Shown: in pieces, positions 38,290 through 46,250 of the stretch
How the letters are laid out: every line of letters starts with the position of its first letter
Numbering within the stretch: the stretch's first letter is position 1
Assembly (NCBI RefSeq): GCF_001530125.1
Contig: NZ_LDUG01000036.1
Location: 124,001-188,000 of the forward strand
Reading direction: 5' to 3'
Length of the DNA stretch: 64,000 nucleotides
From: Thiobacillus denitrificans
Lineage (GTDB): Bacteria; Pseudomonadota; Gammaproteobacteria; Burkholderiales; Thiobacillaceae
Notes under the pieces: model-generated
The model's input: the letters and a program-made list of their open reading frames with translations, nothing else
The model's database searches: none
Told to the model about the DNA's origin: nothing
Made by a program: the position numbers and the translations under genes

Positions 38290-39921
38290 CTAACTCATCA
38301 GCTGGCCGTGTTCGCGCGTGTCGTGGAATGCGACTTTGGGCCAGCGTTCCTGTGCCAGCATCAGGTTCACCCGCGTGTCCGCCAGATAGACCAGGTTGCC
38401 ATCGACGTCCCTGGCCAGTTTGAGTGTGTTGGCCTTGGTAAATTCCGCCAGGTGCTGGGCGTCCGGGCAGGTGACCCAGCGCGCAGTGTAGATGCCGGCG
38501 TTCTCGAAGCTGGCGTCGACGCCGTACTCGGTCTTCAGGCGATGGGCGACGACTTCGAACTGCAGCTGGCCGACCGCGCCGATCAGCAGGGTGTTGTCGG
38601 CAAACGGCTCGAACACCTGCACAGCGCCTTCCTCACCGAGTTCCAGCAAACCCTTGTTCAGCTGCTTGGCGCGCAGCGGGTCGCGCAGGCGCGGGCGGCT
38701 GAACAGTTCGGGGGCGAAGTAGGGAATGCCCTTGAACTGCAGCGCCTCACCTTCGGTGAGGGTGTCGCCGATATGCAGCTGGCCGTGGTTGTGGATGCCG
38801 ATGATGTCACCCGCGACGGCGTCTTCCATGCGGGTGCGCTCGTTGGCCATGAAGACCACGGCGTTGGCGATTTTCATCTCCTTGCCGGTGCGGCGGTGGC
38901 GCACTTTCATGTTGGGGCTGTAGCGCCCCGAGCAGACGCGGAAAAAGGCGATGCGGTCGCGGTGCTGCGGGTCCATGTTGGCCTGGATCTTGAACACGAA
39001 GCCGGTGAACTTCGGTTCGGTGGGGTCGACCACGCGCTCGACCGCCTCGCGCGGCTGTGGCGGCGGCGCCCAGTCGGACAGCGCGCGCAGCACTTCGCGC
39101 ACGCCGAAGTTGTTGATCCCGGAACCGAAAAACACCGGCGACTGCCTGCCCTTGAGAAACGCATCAAGATCGAAGCTGTCGCCGGCGCCGCGCACCAGCT
39201 CGATTTCCGACAGCAGGGTGTCGGCTTCGAGCGGGAAGCGTTCCTTCAGGGCGGCCTCGCCCAGCCCCTGCAGCGATTCGAACTGCTGGTTGGCGTTTTC
39301 TTCTCCCGCCTTGAAGCGCAAAATTTCGTTGTTGAGCAGGTGGTACACGCCCTGAAAGCGCTTGCCCATGCCGATCGGCCAGGTCACCGGCGCGCAGTGG
39401 ATTTTAAGGATCGACTCGATCTCGTCCAGCAGTTCCAGCGGCTCGCGCACCTCGCGGTCCATCTTGTTGATGAAGGTGATGATGGGCGTGTCGCGCAGGC
39501 GGCACACCTCCAGCAGCTTGATCGTCTGTTCCTCCACGCCCTTGGCGGCGTCGACCACCATGATGGCGGCATCCACCGCGGTCAGCACGCGATAGGTGTC
39601 CTCGGAAAAGTCCTTGTGGCCGGGGGTGTCGAGCAGGTTGAACACGCAGCCGCCGTGGGAGAACTGCATGACCGAGCTCGCCACCGAAATGCCGCGCTCG
39701 CGCTCGACCTCCATCCAGTCGGAGGTGGCATAGCGGCCGCTCTTGCGCGCCTTGACCGTGCCAGCCATCTGGATCGCGCCGCCGAACAGCAGCAGCTTCT
39801 CGGTCAGCGTGGTCTTACCGGCGTCGGGGTGCGAGATGATGGCGAAGGTGCGGCGTTTCTTGACGTCGCGCGCCAAGGCGGGATCGCCGGTTTGCGCCGG
39901 CGCGGTGAGAGTGGATTCCAT
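38290..39921 (-). CDS. prfC: Peptide chain release factor 3
   Basis: The product is 543 residues from ATG 39921. It is a translational GTPase that recycles RF1 and RF2. G1 is [16 protein letters not shown]3 [14 protein letters not shown] and G4 FINKMDRE; domain II and III follow ([20 protein letters not shown] region, [17 protein letters not shown]). No good Shine-Dalgarno is seen, and an in-frame TTG at 39948 is an alternative start. It shares the window with prfB, but they are 33 kb apart. Confidence 0.96.
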
Positions 39922-40250
39922 CAGGGAGGGTAAAGCGGTAAACACCAATCCGGCATTTTACCGGAGACCCGGTCACTTTACCCGTACGCGGACACTCAGG
40001 TTGAAACTGGGTGAGGGATTCCCGGAAGAGGCATCGCTGTCCGGGCTTCCTGTGAGTTGAACCCACAGCCGGATCAAAACCGCCGTTGGGCACCTATGGC
40101 CCGGGGATGAAATTCAGGGTGTAGTCGGAAAAAGAAAAAAGCCCGGTCAAATGACCGAGCTTTTAATGTGTGGTGCGCTGGAAGAGATGAATCGGGGCAC
40201 TGGGACGTCGTATTTAGGCTGTTCTGAATGGGTTAGCACTATTACACGAG
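39922..40250. other. Gap between prfC and island genes
   Basis: This 329-base stretch has no gene. The prfC promoter should lie near 39930-40000. The left direct repeat of the island (40130-40184) occupies its middle and includes a duplicated tRNA-Arg terminator hairpin. The rest shows nothing I can identify. Confidence 0.6.
40130..40184. repeat. Left direct repeat (tRNA-Arg 3' end copy)
   Basis: Identical to 46133-46181 over 49 bases, then T/C at 40179, then GGAAG. It contains the terminator hairpin GCCCGGTC-AAAT-GACCGAGC and TGGTGCGC, the complement of the tRNA 3' end. Confidence 0.9.
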
Positions 40251-40736
40251 CTATTCTGCAGGAATTTGTTTCTCGATCTCAGGCCCATCAAACGTCTGAG
40301 GTCTTGGTAAGCTAACGCCTCGCAAGCCCATTTCCAATAAAGTGCTTTCGGCCCTACGAAGCGCGATGTCATGAACAACTCCTAAATACGGAGAGAGGGC
40401 CTCGCTTGGTACATTTAGCCAGTCATCAAAACCTACCCAAGATATCAGGGAGAATTGAACTTCGTGTTTAGCCTCGTAATCGACTAATTTTTTTTCCGCC
40501 TCGGAAACCGTAAGCCGTACTTCGAAGTTGATCGCGACATTGAGCAGAGTAGGGGCCTCGGGATTGTCCAATCCAATTTCAAATTGGCTACCAGTTTCGG
40601 CACGCAACTCGATCTTTTTGGGTTCTTTGCTTGGCTGTGCAGGTGCGGACGTTGCGCGTTCATTGACGAGCCGGACTTGCAAGGGCCTTGCATTGATGAA
40701 CGCCTGTCCCTTAATGGTAGGGCTTGGAGTACTCAT
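40251..40736 (-). CDS. SecB-like chaperone of a TAC system
   Basis: The product is 161 residues, close to SecB (155 in E. coli). The core has alternating strands (LLNVAINFEVRLTVSEAEKK, then HEVQFSLISWVGFDDW). The SecB-type end follows, with LSPYLGVVHDIALRRAESTL and GLRGVSLPRP, equivalent to the PYaRe-LP signature. It overlaps the upstream antitoxin gene by 26 bases and has AAGGA before its ATG. In toxin-antitoxin-chaperone systems a SecB-like protein stabilises the antitoxin. Its location rules against housekeeping SecB. Confidence 0.85.
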   Translation of the reverse strand: MSTPSPTIKGQAFINARPLQVRLVNERATSAPAQPSKEPKKIELRAETGSQFEIGLDNPEAPTLLNVAINFEVRLTVSEAEKKLVDYEAKHEVQFSLISWVGFDDWLNVPSEALSPYLGVVHDIALRRAESTLLEMGLRGVSLPRPQTFDGPEIEKQIPAE

Positions 40737-41424
40737 CTGGATTTCCTTGAAGGTATGAGGGTGGTATTAAAGTTGATGTCGGCGTAATGAATGTTTTTAG
40801 GGCCGTCGCCATTGAGAATGGTTGGCTGCCAAATTCCTCAAATAAGATAATTGGTTTATCGCTGACAAAACCAGTCAGAGTTACCAGCTCGCTTTCGATG
40901 ATCCTATAAATCGGGACGCCAGCCGGAAGCACTGCAACACTGCTTGCATGGGCCTCAGTGGCTGATGTTTTCAAGGGATGATGGAAATCGAAGTTCCATC
41001 CTTTTTCCGTAAGTGTTAAATAGATCACACTTGGTAAAGGGGGCGCTGATCCATCAACGAAGCTAAGCACTTCTTTAATACTTAATGCATTATCAAAACG
41101 CGCAGCAAATCGCATCCTAATCGTTAGATCTACATACATTGGTACGGTCTCTGACGATTTTTCCCACCGAGCAACGGTTTGCGCATCTCTGTCGACCATT
41201 TTCCCAAACGACGCTTGGGTGATTTCTAGGCCACGCCTTAGAAAGCGTAAATCGGACCCGCGCAAAGAAGTTGGTCTGCGAAGGACCAGTCGACGAATGC
41301 AATGCTCGAGTTCATCTTCACGTTCATATTCCCGCGCAAGGCCATCCTCGGTATCGAGTTCGTGGTAACCATTTACTAAGCGCAGTTGTGTAAATGCAAA
41401 ATGTGGGTAAGTAATCATGGCCAT
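40711..41424 (-). CDS. HTH antitoxin with long C-terminal extension (TAC antitoxin)
   Basis: The product is 237 residues. A MqsA/HigA-like helix-turn-helix is at about residues 52-92 (LRGSDLRFLRRGLEITQASF; then AQTVARWEKS). The ~145-residue C-terminal part (SVIYLTLTEKGWNFDF, then VPIYRIIESELVTLTGFVSD) is unusually long and may hold the chaperone-addiction region that makes folding depend on the SecB-like partner (inference). Its ATG directly follows the toxin TAA (TAAATG), so toxin and antitoxin are translationally linked. Confidence 0.8.
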   Translation of the reverse strand: MAMITYPHFAFTQLRLVNGYHELDTEDGLAREYEREDELEHCIRRLVLRRPTSLRGSDLRFLRRGLEITQASFGKMVDRDAQTVARWEKSSETVPMYVDLTIRMRFAARFDNALSIKEVLSFVDGSAPPLPSVIYLTLTEKGWNFDFHHPLKTSATEAHASSVAVLPAGVPIYRIIESELVTLTGFVSDKPIILFEEFGSQPFSMATALKTFITPTSTLIPPSYLQGNPDEYSKPYH

Positions 41425-41736
41425 TTAGTTTGAAACATCGATGACGGAAATGACAACAACATTTTTTTCTGGATAGAGGCAAGCAGCTACTGCTATTGCA
41501 TCGCCGTCTATATGTGCTTTCATCGTAAATTTGTACCCGATTGGACCGGACCTAATTGGAATCGTCGGAGGTTCGGTGAAAAATCCCAAGAGCAGGCAAT
41601 CCTTAACTTGGCTGCGGTCGAAGCCTCGCTGGGCGAGACGCTCTTCCGCGTGGGTTGTCCAAGCGATCTTTCCACGTCTAACAAGCCGTCGCAATTCATC
41701 TAAAACTTCATTTTTTGATAGAGAAGCGCTTGGCAT
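41425..41736 (-). CDS. DUF4258/MqsR-like toxin
   Basis: The product is 103 residues. SKNEVLDELRRLVRRGKIAW followed by TTHAEERLAQRGFDRSQVKD is the DUF4258 pattern (small RelE/BrnT/MqsR-like fold, with TxHAxxRxxxRGF). It ends in strands AIAVAACLYPEKNVVVISVI. Such proteins act as mRNA interferases in related systems; catalysis here is inferred. The gene order toxin, antitoxin, SecB-like chaperone matches MqsRA-type TAC triads. No clear Shine-Dalgarno precedes ATG 41736. Confidence 0.75.
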   Translation of the reverse strand: MPSASLSKNEVLDELRRLVRRGKIAWTTHAEERLAQRGFDRSQVKDCLLLGFFTEPPTIPIRSGPIGYKFTMKAHIDGDAIAVAACLYPEKNVVVISVIDVSN

Positions 41737-41751
41737 TGTATAGCTGTTTCA

Positions 41752-41784
41752 ACAATTGTAGTTGTTCATCTATCAAAATGATAG
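41752..41784. promoter_or_regulatory. Probable TAC operator palindromes
   Basis: Two perfect palindromes, ACAATTGT and CTATCAAAATGATAG, lie 16-48 bases upstream of the toxin start, where an HTH antitoxin would be expected to autoregulate. Binding is inferred. Confidence 0.55.
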
Positions 41785-42040
41785 GTCTTGGAGGTGGGGC
41801 CGTCGTTCCCCCCCCGTTCAAGTAACACGGGGTCGTGGATACGTCTGTCTCCAATTTACCAGCAAATGTACCGGTGTTGTTTAGGCAAAATATTGCACGA
41901 CCAAAAATCACTGTAGTCTGGCTTGGCAATCCTCGACTACGGCCCCGCACAAGAGCATCGCCTTTGTGCCAATTAAATCAGCACAGTCTGGCGTGCCAGT
42001 CTGTAGCCTCGCCTTGCAAGTGCGCAAGCGTTTGCGACGG

Positions 42041-42069
42041 TTGAATAATCGCCCCAGGTTCCATATAGT
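42041..42069 (+). promoter_or_regulatory. Promoter TTGAAT-17-TATAGT, probably leaderless
   Basis: TTGAAT at 42041-42046 and TATAGT at 42064-42069 are separated by exactly 17 bases. The expected transcription start, about seven bases after the -10 box, falls on the ATG at 42076, so the mRNA would have no leader. No Shine-Dalgarno sequence is present. Confidence 0.6.
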
Positions 42070-42075
42070 GCGTAC

Positions 42076-42246
42076 ATGGCTCCTAAATCCTTGCTCCAGC
42101 AGAATCCCCATTTGCGCAATAAGCAGGACTACCAGCGCGCATTGCGCACTAACGTGCTTTCTTCTACGGCGATTGAAGGTGTGAAAAAAGCAGCGGAACG
42201 CGCGCTGCCCCCTGCTGCTGACAAGCAGCCAGCAAAAGCCCGCTAA
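42076..42246 (+). CDS. Small Fic-antitoxin-like protein (56 residues)
   Basis: This 56-residue protein has NPHLRNKQDYQRALRTNVLS followed by STAIEGVKKAAERA. The word STAIEG fits the Fic inhibitory motif (S/T)xxxE(G/N), carried by antitoxin helices that block the Fic ATP site. It lies next to a fic gene but on the opposite strand, and the two stop codons overlap tail to tail by four bases. It has its own promoter. Antitoxin function is inferred from motif and neighbour. Confidence 0.65.
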   Translation: MAPKSLLQQNPHLRNKQDYQRALRTNVLSSTAIEGVKKAAERALPPAADKQPAKAR

Positions 42247-42871
42247 TTGCTGGCCTGCACCACCCGCCTGAAAATCTCCCGCATCGGTTCGTAGTTCCTG
42301 TCCATTCCAGCCTGCACCGCAGCAAAGTAAGCCTCGCGCTGCTTGCCTTTGATCACGCCAAAATTGAGTAGCGGCAGTCCTGCCTGCAATGCCATCAACG
42401 TGGACAGCAAGCGCGACACGCGCCCGTTCCCCTCACGGAATGGATGGATCAGCACCACTTCTGCGTAATCGCCAACGCCTCCAATACCTTTTCTGGATCA
42501 TCGAATGTGCAAGGCGTGTAACGCGCCAGCACATCCCGTTCAAACTCCTGCATCAAACGCGGTACTTGAGGGGACATCGCAAACGGAAAACCGCCCTTGC
42601 TGATATTGACCTGGCGGTATTCTCCGGCCCATTCATACAGAGCACCCAGCCATTGTTTATGCCACTGGCAAATATCGGCTGCGGTGAAACGCTGCTCGGC
42701 GGTAACGTGGCGAATCGCCCAATCGGTTGCCTCGGCCAGTGTTGTGGCTTCTAGCGCATCCATTGCGCGCTTGCCGCGGATGCCTTGCAAATTCCTCAGG
42801 ACACGCCCGCGCGAACCTGGTTCAAACTGATCTTCGGTGAGGTGCCCGGTGTCGTAGCGGGAGGGCGTCAT
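42243..42871 (-). pseudogene. fic: Fic family AMP-transferase, frameshifted
   Basis: The first frame, from ATG 42871 (overlapping the upstream stop as ATGA), encodes the N-terminal ~140 residues, with LYEWAGEYRQVNISKGG and FAMSPQVPRLMQEF. The second frame, from about 42461, continues VVLIHPFREGNGRVSRLL with an intact Fic motif HPFxxGNGR. The break lies near 42462, between ATT ACG CA and GAA GTG; comparison with the usual ITHxE word suggests loss of four bases between GCA repeats. The gene should be dead unless frameshifting or an assembly error restores it. Confidence 0.85.
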
Positions 42872-45800
42872 TGGATCGGCCACTTGGTAATGGCTTGGTC
42901 GATCGCGGCTTGCAGGCGGATGGTCTCTGCCAGTGCCGCCATCACCTGCTGGTAATGGGTCAGGTCGTCATAGTTTAGCTGGCGCCCCTTGCGGTCTTTC
43001 AGCCACTTGTACGCCACCTGGTAGCCGCCGACGTGAAAACTCCAGACCGCGTCCGGCACCCCTTCGAAGTATTGCTCGGCGTTGATGTACACCCGGCCAT
43101 CGGCGTAGCGCACCGTCTCCACCTTGTTGTCGCCCGCAACCGGATAGCGGCAGATCGCCGGGGCGGCGGTTTCCATCAGGTGCAGCGCCACCAGTTGCTG
43201 GCCCAGCGCGCACAGGCTGCGGAACAGCTTGGCGTCGGATGTCAGCGGCAGGCGCGGGAAATCGATTTTCAGAAAACCGGCATAACGGCTGCGGTAAGTC
43301 GGTGAATGAAACACCGCATAGGCGTAGTGGAAGCAGTCCTCCGGTGTGGGCGTGGAGCCCAGTTGATCGGTGAGTGCGGCGAGAAAGGCGGGTGACAGGT
43401 TGGGGCTGCGGCTGTCGCCGTTGCCCTCATCGAAAAGATCGCTTTTGTGAGCGTTGGGGTAGAGGTAGAGCGGTAACGTATAACCGCGTTCAGCTGTTTT
43501 GTTTGAAACATAACAATCGTCTGTTATCAGATTGGTTGCCATGATGTGTGCCCAATCCTGTATTGAAATCTGACGGCAGAGATGGAATCCAACATTCTTT
43601 CCCGTCAGCATATGCCGCATTACTTCGCCACGTGGCATGCAATGAAAGCCTCTTGAATTTCCTGTGTGGTAAGTGTTGCGCACGTCGAATGGTCGGTAGA
43701 GGATGGGAGCTAGCCTGGTTTCGTTCGGGCCGCTCGCTCGCAGATCGGCTTGCGCCAGCGATACTTTCCAGTCGCGTGCGTCCTTGCCCAGTGCATATTT
43801 TTCGCGCGCATCCTCGGGCGGCAGCGCGGCAAAATCCTTCACGGTCTGCCAGGCATCGTCGCGGTTCCAGTGAATGGTGAGCGCGTCGCGCGCGGTGACG
43901 ATGCCGACGCTGTTGACCGGCATGATGTCGGTGATTTTCCAGCCCTGCTCGTATTCGGCGCGCAGGGTCTCGTCCTGCGGCACGAACAGGTAGAACGGCG
44001 CCTGCGGCTGGAGGGTGCGCCATGTCGTGGATTTCAGGTCGCACTCGGCGAGCCACCGGTATTTGCCTTCGCGCTCGCCGAACAGGTCGGCGTGGCGCAC
44101 GGTGGCACCCTCACCCCCAGCCCCTCTCCCCGAGGGCGAGGGGAGTCTTTTGACGAAGATGCCGATGGCGACGCCCTGCTGGATGTCGAACACGTTTTCG
44201 TCCTTGCCGCCGTCCGGCGCCTTTTCCATCTTCTTGCTGTTGCCGTGCAGGTCGAGCAGGTAGATGTCGTCGAAGCTGTGCATCAGGCTTTGGCGCATGC
44301 CGCGAAAGGTCGGGTTGTCCAGGTAGCCGTGATTGGTGACGAAGGCCAGCACGCCGTAGCCGGTCTGCTCGATGCGCCACTGGGCGAAGCGGATGAATTT
44401 CACGTAGTCGTCGTTGAGCCATTTGGGATTGCGCTCGCCCAGTGGTCCGCCATCCACTTCGAAGTAGTTGCCTGTTTTTTGATTGGTGGCCCGGTCATTG
44501 CCGCGAAGCAAGCCGGCGATCCATTCGCCCGTGTTGGCGGAGTGTCCTGAGTAGGGCGGGTTGCCCAGCACCACCATGATGGGCGAATCCCGTTTAACAG
44601 TTGCTGCGCTATTGGCTTCCTCGGCCAGCCACTGGGTAAACAGAGGCAGGCCTGTCATTTCGTGTGCTTCTTCCAGCGTGTTGGTGAGGTAGACACGCAG
44701 TCGCTCATCGGCTTCGAAGTCGTAGCCTGATTCCTTCAGCTGCAAGCCCAGCTTCATGTGTGCTACGGCATAGGGTGCCATCAGCAGCTCAAACCCATAA
44801 ATCCTTGGCAACAGGTGCTCAGCTACATAACCCGGCCACATCCCTGCGTTGCCAGTGAAAGTGGCTCGGATGTGTTCGACGACGCTGTAAAGGAATGTCC
44901 CCGTACCGGTGGCCGGGTCGAGAATTTGAACCTTGTGGGTTTCGACGGTGACGAATTCAGTCTTGCCTGTCTTCTTGGCCCTTATCGGGCACTTGATCTT
45001 GATCTTGGTTGCATCAGCCAAGCCCTTTGCCAGTTTGAAATCGCTTTTCAGCAGGTGATCCACGCTACGCACGATATACGACACCACGGGTTCTGGCGTG
45101 TAGTAGACGCCGCGCGCCTCGCGCATCTTCGCGTCATAGTGCCCCAGGAAGGTCTCGTAGAAATGAACGACGGGGTCTTCCTGCCGTGTATGGCGACCAA
45201 AATCCTTGAGGATTGCGCCAATATCGCTTCTGGCCAGCAGTTCTGCGAGGTCGTCAACCGCCCATACGATGCGGTCGTCCAGTTCAGGGCCTGCAACGTG
45301 CCCGAACATTTTGCGCAGGAACGGATTGGTTTTTGGTAGATCGTAGGCAGCATGAGCACGTGTGAAACGTTCCGCAGAGGGGGCGTTGCAACGTGCAGCA
45401 AACAGTCCGTAACAAATAGTTTGTGCGTACATGTCGCCAAACTGTTCGGGTGTCATGTCGTTTAACAGCACCTTTTGGAATGCTTGCATTTGCTGGTGAA
45501 GCGACCCTTCATCCCCTTCGTCTGCAAATGTCTTGCTGATGATTGAGCGTATTAGCCGCGCCATTGCGGCCATACGGATGGCCAGGTCGCGCGGGTTGTT
45601 GATGACGGGGATATCGGCATTGAGAAAGCTATCCAGCAGCCGACCGAGTTGTTCAGTTGCATCGGGGAGAAGTTTCAGCTTGCCGGTTTTGTCGGCTTTG
45701 GCTAGTTTGACCGTGAGCCGGTGCTCACCCGCGACGTACCAGCGGAATTCCAGATAGTCGGTCAGGATCAGGTTGGCCAGGCTTTCGCGGTATCGCTTTA

Positions 45801-46062
45801 GCTGCTCGCCGGATTCGATGCTATCCAGGGGGACACCGACATCCTTGGCCTCGATATAGCCCAGCGGAATGGTGCCGCGCGTGACAATGTAATCGGGTGC
45901 GCCGCACTTGATCCGCCGGGGTTCGTTGGTGGCAGTGATGCCCGCTGCAATCTGCTCGATCAATGCTTTGAGCGCGGGCCGGTGGGTGTGCTCGGTGGCA
46001 TTGCCTGCCCTGATCGCCTGTTCAATGCCGGAAAGATAGGATTTGAGCGCCGCAGGGTTCAT
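42868..46062 (-). CDS. Single-chain restriction-modification enzyme (type IIG/ISP-like)
   Basis: The 1064-residue protein carries an N-terminal PD-(D/E)XK nuclease (GAPDYIVTRGTIPLGYIEAK, residues ~50-72) and a helical linker with ARGVYYTPEPVVSYIVRS. The N6-adenine methyltransferase has motif I (ILDPATGTGTFLYSV) and motif IV (NPPYSGH), and a C-terminal target-recognition region follows. No helicase motifs are seen, unlike full type ISP enzymes. Its stop overlaps the fic start (ATGA), so the two are one operon. A mobile palindrome is inserted in frame at 44108-44145. Confidence 0.88.
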   Translation of the reverse strand: MNPAALKSYLSGIEQAIRAGNATEHTHRPALKALIEQIAAGITATNEPRRIKCGAPDYIVTRGTIPLGYIEAKDVGVPLDSIESGEQLKRYRESLANLILTDYLEFRWYVAGEHRLTVKLAKADKTGKLKLLPDATEQLGRLLDSFLNADIPVINNPRDLAIRMAAMARLIRSIISKTFADEGDEGSLHQQMQAFQKVLLNDMTPEQFGDMYAQTICYGLFAARCNAPSAERFTRAHAAYDLPKTNPFLRKMFGHVAGPELDDRIVWAVDDLAELLARSDIGAILKDFGRHTRQEDPVVHFYETFLGHYDAKMREARGVYYTPEPVVSYIVRSVDHLLKSDFKLAKGLADATKIKIKCPIRAKKTGKTEFVTVETHKVQILDPATGTGTFLYSVVEHIRATFTGNAGMWPGYVAEHLLPRIYGFELLMAPYAVAHMKLGLQLKESGYDFEADERLRVYLTNTLEEAHEMTGLPLFTQWLAEEANSAATVKRDSPIMVVLGNPPYSGHSANTGEWIAGLLRGNDRATNQKTGNYFEVDGGPLGERNPKWLNDDYVKFIRFAQWRIEQTGYGVLAFVTNHGYLDNPTFRGMRQSLMHSFDDIYLLDLHGNSKKMEKAPDGGKDENVFDIQQGVAIGIFVKRLPSPSGRGAGGEGATVRHADLFGEREGKYRWLAECDLKSTTWRTLQPQAPFYLFVPQDETLRAEYEQGWKITDIMPVNSVGIVTARDALTIHWNRDDAWQTVKDFAALPPEDAREKYALGKDARDWKVSLAQADLRASGPNETRLAPILYRPFDVRNTYHTGNSRGFHCMPRGEVMRHMLTGKNVGFHLCRQISIQDWAHIMATNLITDDCYVSNKTAERGYTLPLYLYPNAHKSDLFDEGNGDSRSPNLSPAFLAALTDQLGSTPTPEDCFHYAYAVFHSPTYRSRYAGFLKIDFPRLPLTSDAKLFRSLCALGQQLVALHLMETAAPAICRYPVAGDNKVETVRYADGRVYINAEQYFEGVPDAVWSFHVGGYQVAYKWLKDRKGRQLNYDDLTHYQQVMAALAETIRLQAAIDQAITKWPIQ
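44108..44145. repeat. Palindromic repeat inserted in frame in the RM gene
   Basis: CCCTCACCCCCAG and then CCCCTC-N11-GAGGGG form a GC-rich hairpin of a type common between genes in proteobacteria. Here it is inside the coding sequence and is translated as PSPSGRGAGGEGA, between the methyltransferase core and the recognition region. Confidence 0.75.
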
Positions 46063-46132
46063 GCGGCGAGTTTATAGTATCGGAGCGTGACAGGTGAAAC
46101 CCGCTCGCGATGGATGTGAAATCCAGGCAGGG

Positions 46133-46187
46133 AAAAGAAAAAAGCCCGGTCAAATGACCGAGCTTTTAATGTGTGGTGCGCCGGAAG
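46133..46187. repeat. Right direct repeat with tRNA-Arg terminator
   Basis: Matches 40130-40184. It includes the terminator of tRNA-Arg on the minus strand (stem 46144-46163, followed by TTTTTTC) and the first 14 bases of the tRNA complement (46174 onward). Confidence 0.9.
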
Positions 46188-46250
46188 GGATTCGAACCCC
46201 TGACCCCTTGGTTCGTAGCCAAGTACTCTATCCAGCTGAGCTACCGGCGC
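46174..46250 (-). tRNA. tRNA-Arg(ACG)
   Basis: The 77-base cloverleaf starts GCGCCGGTAGCTCAGCTGGA, has anticodon loop CTACGAA (anticodon ACG), T-arm GGGGTTCGAATCCC and encoded CCA. It is the integration target of the 6-kb island. Confidence 0.97.

Follow-up and report, generated by a model that had tools for sequence, protein, structure and literature searches.

A probable toxin-antitoxin-chaperone module with a DUF4258 toxin at one end of a tRNA-Arg island in Thiobacillus denitrificans

A stretch of 64,000 nucleotides from Thiobacillus denitrificans (the window) holds three minus-strand open reading frames (ORFs) at 40251-41736 that encode, in this order, a toxin, an antitoxin and a SecB-like chaperone, and the question they raise is whether together they make up a toxin-antitoxin-chaperone (TAC) system and, if so, whether its toxin is of a class already named for such systems. 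The TAC pairs named in passages of PMC5105189 are HigBA, HicAB and MqsRA, to which CmdTA is a later addition, and the antitoxin tails given or implied there measure 45 residues in Mtb, 41 in Mmet, 41 in Vcho and 30 in Glov, their length being highly variable. The sequence-only reading of this locus had assumed that TACs use HigBA or MqsRA pairs with short tails, which is incomplete when set beside the passages in print, where HicAB and CmdTA also figure and the C-terminus of CmdA is long.

All three ORFs, as given in the ORF list of the window, are intact. The toxin stop codon directly abuts the antitoxin ATG and the antitoxin gene shares 26 nt with the chaperone gene, which bears out the three abutting or overlapping genes first proposed, and AAGGAAAT stands immediately ahead of the chaperone ATG. 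Because the majority of antitoxin homologues begin at the second methionine (MITYPHF), whose counterpart in the window is the ATG at 41418, the antitoxin is probably 235 aa in length. By gene order, overlap and fold, a toxin, an antitoxin and a SecB-family gene stand here in one operon-like cluster, as a TAC system calls for; the features of the locus are collected in Table 1.

Table 1. Features of the three-gene cluster and of the island around it, in window coordinates
Feature	Coordinates	Strand	Basis or remark
Left direct repeat: duplicates the terminator of tRNA-Arg and the 3' end of the tRNA	40127..40188		59/62 identical to 46130-46191
SecB-like chaperone gene, 161 aa	40251..40736	minus	AlphaFold2 model, SecB fold
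HTH antitoxin gene, 237 aa, lacking the zinc-finger half of MqsA	40711..41424	minus	ORF; TIGR03830 partial match
Candidate chaperone-addiction tail, antitoxin residues 149-237, predicted disordered	40714..40980	minus	AlphaFold2 (AF2) pLDDT; locus alignment
Toxin gene, DUF4258 (PF14076), 103 aa	41425..41736	minus	Pfam match; likeness to Azonexus toxin
Operator-like palindrome CTATCATTTTGATAG	41770..41784	minus	34-48 nt ahead of toxin ATG
Hairpin CCCCGT-N9-ACGGGG	41812..41832	minus	Common to Azonexus triad
Fic/DOC gene split over two ORFs	42243..42883	minus	PF02661 in both pieces; PADLOC PDC-S04 in larger piece
Type ISP (IIG) restriction-modification enzyme	42868..46062	minus	PF18135 E=4.9e-93; PADLOC REase_MTase_IIG 1035.6 bits
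Right direct repeat: terminator and 3' end of tRNA-Arg	46130..46191		tRNA-Arg(ACG) at 46174-46250

The toxin matches the Pfam family DUF4258 (PF14076) with E=8.7e-7 and 29.6 bits, above the cut-off of 25, and is the only protein of its own genome to match that family at E<=0.001. It retains three residues, H, R and G, that hardly vary across the toxin family, and shares 61% identity over 96 aa with the toxin of a second triad, from Azonexus. In an alignment of toxins from 67 of 93 related loci plus the window, whose toxin was entered without its first methionine (A6), some rows of which are spurious ORFs, 58 of the 68 proteins individually matched PF14076 at E<=0.01. The toxin had initially been called DUF4258/MqsR-like, and just the first half of that name stands: an MqsR identity was rejected, DUF4258 being the sole family found at E<=10. 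In excerpts from the literature, DUF4258 is listed among BECR-fold toxins without known activity (PMC11980606), a DUF4258 CdiA tip is marked as a tRNase with a question mark (PMC11630599) and DNA double-strand breaks are listed for DUF4258 (PMC8790059); we take RNase as the likeliest activity and the toxin as probably a BECR-fold enzyme of this type.

The third protein has no match in Pfam, NCBIfam or PADLOC, and a sequence search of the PDB returned nothing useful, its fold being detected from a structural model instead. The AlphaFold2 model has a SecB fold and finds as its best PDB matches SecB itself and the M. tuberculosis TAC chaperone Rv1957 (5mtw), so that the SecB-like chaperone of the sequence-only reading is upheld by modelled structure and not by sequence families. 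The missing match over the cut-off to the Pfam SecB model PF02556 is no argument against this fold because, in passages of PMC4257090, 33 TAC chaperones are likewise missing from PF02556; in 350 genomes of the class, the matches listed for PF02556 are mainly strong and of SecB length. The antitoxin and the chaperone of the window both have relatives that are 95-96% identical, the 96% identical chaperone homologue belonging to Thiobacillus sp.; Rhodocyclus tenuis, too, has a SecB-like protein on record.

The match of the antitoxin to the MqsA-family model TIGR03830 is confined to the HTH half (profile positions 45-115), with 30 bits against a cut-off of 61.8, and all 78 members of an alignment built from 77 of 83 antitoxin matches plus the window (A4) match this model at E<=0.01. 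The N-terminal CxxCG zinc-finger half of MqsA is absent from the window antitoxin, which has no CxxC anywhere in its sequence, and a Foldseek search placed it near HTH repressors and HigA2, with no neighbour at E<=0.001. In an AF2 model made with 78 sequences, confidence is high up to about residue 148 (pLDDT block means 88-98); after residue 150 the means of 10-residue blocks fall to 44-71, values that may in part be an effect of poor alignment in a fast-evolving tail. The tail is thus predicted by the model to be disordered, the unstructured extension expected of a TAC antitoxin. An HTH antitoxin with an extension of some 145 residues had been proposed, and the HTH and the extension are borne out, the length less so: about 142 residues follow the HTH, about 50 of these belong to a core also found in two-gene relatives, and the part special to the three-gene antitoxins is about 90 residues long. 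This part has almost as many large hydrophobic residues as the core (0.315 vs 0.354) but fewer charged ones (0.196 vs 0.289), and its sequence is poorly conserved save for short patches, weakly around LPxGxG and at the last residue. Of 78 long antitoxins (from P0001-P0082, with 205 aa or more), 71 have H, Q or N as their last residue (41, 23 and 7, respectively), often in the form T-[ILV]-[HQ], a conservation that may stem from either reading frame because the last antitoxin codons overlap the start of the chaperone gene. The short antitoxins have a C-terminal Ala in 60 of 83 cases (51 of 74 without repeats), 27 of the 60 ending in Ala-Ala. CmdA and other TAC antitoxins are said, in passages of PMC11618068, to end in an LAA-type ClpXP signal, and no such end is present at the tail of the window antitoxin.

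Ahead of the toxin gene lies a palindrome that the locus shares with its relatives. In the region that lies 230-750 nt before the antitoxin ORF and includes the toxin start, 67 of the 91 related loci used (of the 93 loci L007-L099) have CTATCA-N3-TGATAG with at most two mismatches; shuffled stretches have it in 1 of 91 cases and downstream ones in 0 of 84. Among loci with distinct antitoxin ends it was found in 64 of 86. As judged from its sequence and position, the palindrome is likely an operator to which the HTH antitoxin would bind, in two-gene and three-gene forms alike, and as a shared feature it would help to find further members. A search of 39900-42300 for sigma-70-like promoters gave two sites in all, against 2.4 expected, both on the plus strand and none on the minus strand.

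With these parts in hand, the locus can be set beside the systems already described. Like the M. tuberculosis TAC (HigB1-HigA1-SecB-TA, Rv1955-1957), it has a toxin, a tailed antitoxin and a SecB-fold chaperone in one operon, but the toxin there is HigB, not a DUF4258 protein, and the tail is about 45 residues in length where the one here is about 90. It shares a SecB-like third gene with MqsRAC (E. coli C496_10) and the Vibrio MqsRA-TAC, and the HTH half of its antitoxin matches their MqsA-family model, whereas its toxin is DUF4258 and not MqsR and its antitoxin lacks the CxxCG half and falls below the TIGR03830 cut-off. CmdTAC, as described in the passages cited, is likewise a three-gene system that combines a SecB-like chaperone with an antitoxin whose long C-terminus is unstructured; CmdT, however, is an mRNA ADP-ribosyltransferase, and CmdA ends in LAA and not in the H, Q or N seen in most long antitoxins here. 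The two-gene DUF4258/MqsA-like modules have in common with the window the toxin family, the antitoxin core and the operator-like palindrome, but are without the long tail, and no chaperone was seen in them. We consider it highly probable that the triad is a TAC module, one whose toxin belongs to a class so far unnamed among TACs. That it might be a new or little-described variant had been suggested on the strength of both the toxin and the tail. The passages of the TAC and DUF4258 literature cited here contain no DUF4258 triad and do not name DUF4258 among TAC toxins, in favour of the first ground, although such a triad could be hidden there under MqsRA because triads are named by their antitoxin family. 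The tail is about twice as long as those for which published passages give lengths, but length alone is not new because CmdA, as there described, already has a long unstructured C-terminus.

How such a module might work can be proposed from the anatomy of the triad and from published TACs. Unless bound by the dedicated chaperone, the tail would prevent the antitoxin from folding or lay it open to proteolysis; once the chaperone is present, the antitoxin would neutralise the toxin and repress the operon through CTATCA-N3-TGATAG. Were the chaperone titrated, most likely by a phage protein and less likely under stress, the antitoxin would be lost and the toxin, probably a BECR-fold RNase, would halt growth. 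That phage or stress might activate the module by titrating the chaperone, as the sequence-only reading also envisaged, is plausible by analogy with CmdTAC and MqsRAC: in passages of PMC11618068 a T4 capsid protein displaces the CmdTAC chaperone and ClpP then removes the antitoxin, and in passages of PMC9519451 MqsRAC protects against T2 and a surplus of chaperone inhibits the protection. If the module works in this way, one more toxin class would come under chaperone control, and the locus would be a candidate phage sensor in a bacterial group for which the TAC literature, in the passages available, names none.

The surroundings of the triad bear on what it does for its host. The triad sits at one end of a 6-kb island (40127-46191) flanked by 62-bp direct repeats that are identical at 59 of 62 positions, and the left repeat also yields a terminator-like hairpin 3' of the chaperone gene (40137-40164). 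GC content is 45-50% in the triad, 59-65% in prfC and about 54-62% in the remaining island. When the prfC flank was compared in 29 other genomes of the genus, from 54 others searched, an insert-free site with prfC, tRNA-Arg, tRNA-Ser and lysC adjacent was found in two (L112 and L133), and a third (L106) has a 52-nt fragment of tRNA-Arg followed by other DNA; 26 of the 29 flanks have no detected tRNA-Arg within 0.5-1.5 kb, by a test that overlooks the short remnant of the window as well. We take the triad to be an accessory, horizontally moved module on a tRNA-Arg island beside defence-type genes. Mobile elements are often stabilised by toxin-antitoxin modules, which, with the place of the triad at one end of an island bounded by direct repeats, lends some weight to a reading in which a chaperone-dependent module stabilises the island by addiction rather than sensing phage. 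We hold this to be possible but on the unlikely side, given that its neighbours are of the defence type (the type ISP restriction-modification enzyme and the Fic gene of PDC-S04) and that CmdTAC and MqsRAC, in the published passages, defend against phages.

A different doubt concerns the chaperone itself, since the system could be an ordinary two-gene DUF4258 system in which the SecB-like gene has a client elsewhere and the tail is not needed. We compared 93 loci from genome and viral collections, 86 of which could be aligned (antitoxin ORF of at least 135 aa), and a DUF4258-like ORF adjoins the antitoxin in 81 of the 93 (82 when anywhere on the same strand is counted), as found with a profile built partly from these loci. 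Counted from a conserved Trp column, which holds W in 79 of the 86 aligned loci, 94 residues follow in the window, 93 in Azonexus hydrophilus (L007) and 99 in the RIFCSPLOWO2_02 betaproteobacterium (L008), compared with 0-34 in the remaining 84 of the 86 loci, so that the extension is absent from two-component homologues. A SecB-like ORF, in any frame, occurs in two of the 93 loci, the same two with long tails, and in none of the 80 short-tailed loci having at least 500 nt downstream; this length was available in 86 of the 93 loci, and the seven others could not have shown a chaperone. The antitoxin family is thus mostly a two-gene system, and long tail and chaperone occur together in all three readable long-tail loci. 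In L008, moreover, antitoxin and chaperone are present though an IS4-family transposase gene (3-1121, opposite strand) occupies the place of the toxin, no toxin ORF being found upstream of the long antitoxin. This coupling renders the ordinary two-gene reading improbable, even though almost every one of the 93 loci has the two-gene form and the tail is poorly conserved outside its short patches. That the module is decayed or inactive, as the split Fic gene nearby and the toxin-less L008 locus might suggest, is very improbable in view of the three intact ORFs, the retained H, R and G of the toxin, the retained palindrome and the 95-96% identical relatives of antitoxin and chaperone.

A search for the same three-gene order, proposed as a check on the TAC reading, returned one further complete triad, that of Azonexus, which is the second seen as DNA and, with the window, one of only two. 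Protein records extend the antitoxin-chaperone pair. A tree of the antitoxin core has a branch, supported by 100/100 and 1.31 in length, that sets the 81 long antitoxins apart together with the shorter rows P0022 and P0043. For 21 of 30 SecB-like proteins the longest contig is exactly as long as that of an antitoxin match, and shifted lengths give 0-3 such agreements (30 of 31 SecB-like and 82 of 83 antitoxin matches were used, one of each having no listed contig), an indirect sign of pairing that speaks of the pair alone and not of the toxin. The 61 of 82 antitoxin matches that lack a SecB-like protein of equal longest contig are perhaps due to cut contigs or diverged partners. Tentatively, these antitoxins may belong to a DUF4258-TAC clade in which a two-gene system was converted once into a phage-sensing triad when it acquired both the tail, of about 90 residues, and a SecB-fold chaperone of its own, and whose recognition and turnover code is unlike that of known TACs; the toxin might then be released by a route other than ClpXP tagging because the last residue of the tail is mostly H, Q or N, where an LAA tag would be expected. 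If the module works as proposed, the two-gene relatives and the one tailed group would offer a natural before-and-after comparison for the evolution of chaperone addiction.

The chaperone is rare among the genomes sampled. A chaperone profile found the genome of the window alone among 399 of the order, 369 of the class and 56 of the genus, and Azonexus alone among 249 genomes of its family; no chaperone was found in phage records, plasmid records or viral contigs. Five matches to the antitoxin were obtained in 100 relatives, its own genome and four with open frames of 151-164 aa, and plasmids gave one weak match, beside an annotated DUF4258 protein. The alignment of the chaperone family (A5) comprises 29 of 31 SecB-like matches, the window and L008. 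The window (41812-41832) and the Azonexus locus (L007, 3601-3623) have in common a hairpin with the conserved loop GTTACTTG; viral contigs contain no exact copy of the window hairpin, and its own genome contains no second one with up to two mismatches. Beside the Azonexus triad lies a stretch that weakly matches a replication protein of filamentous phages (Phage_CRI; L007 1970-3037).
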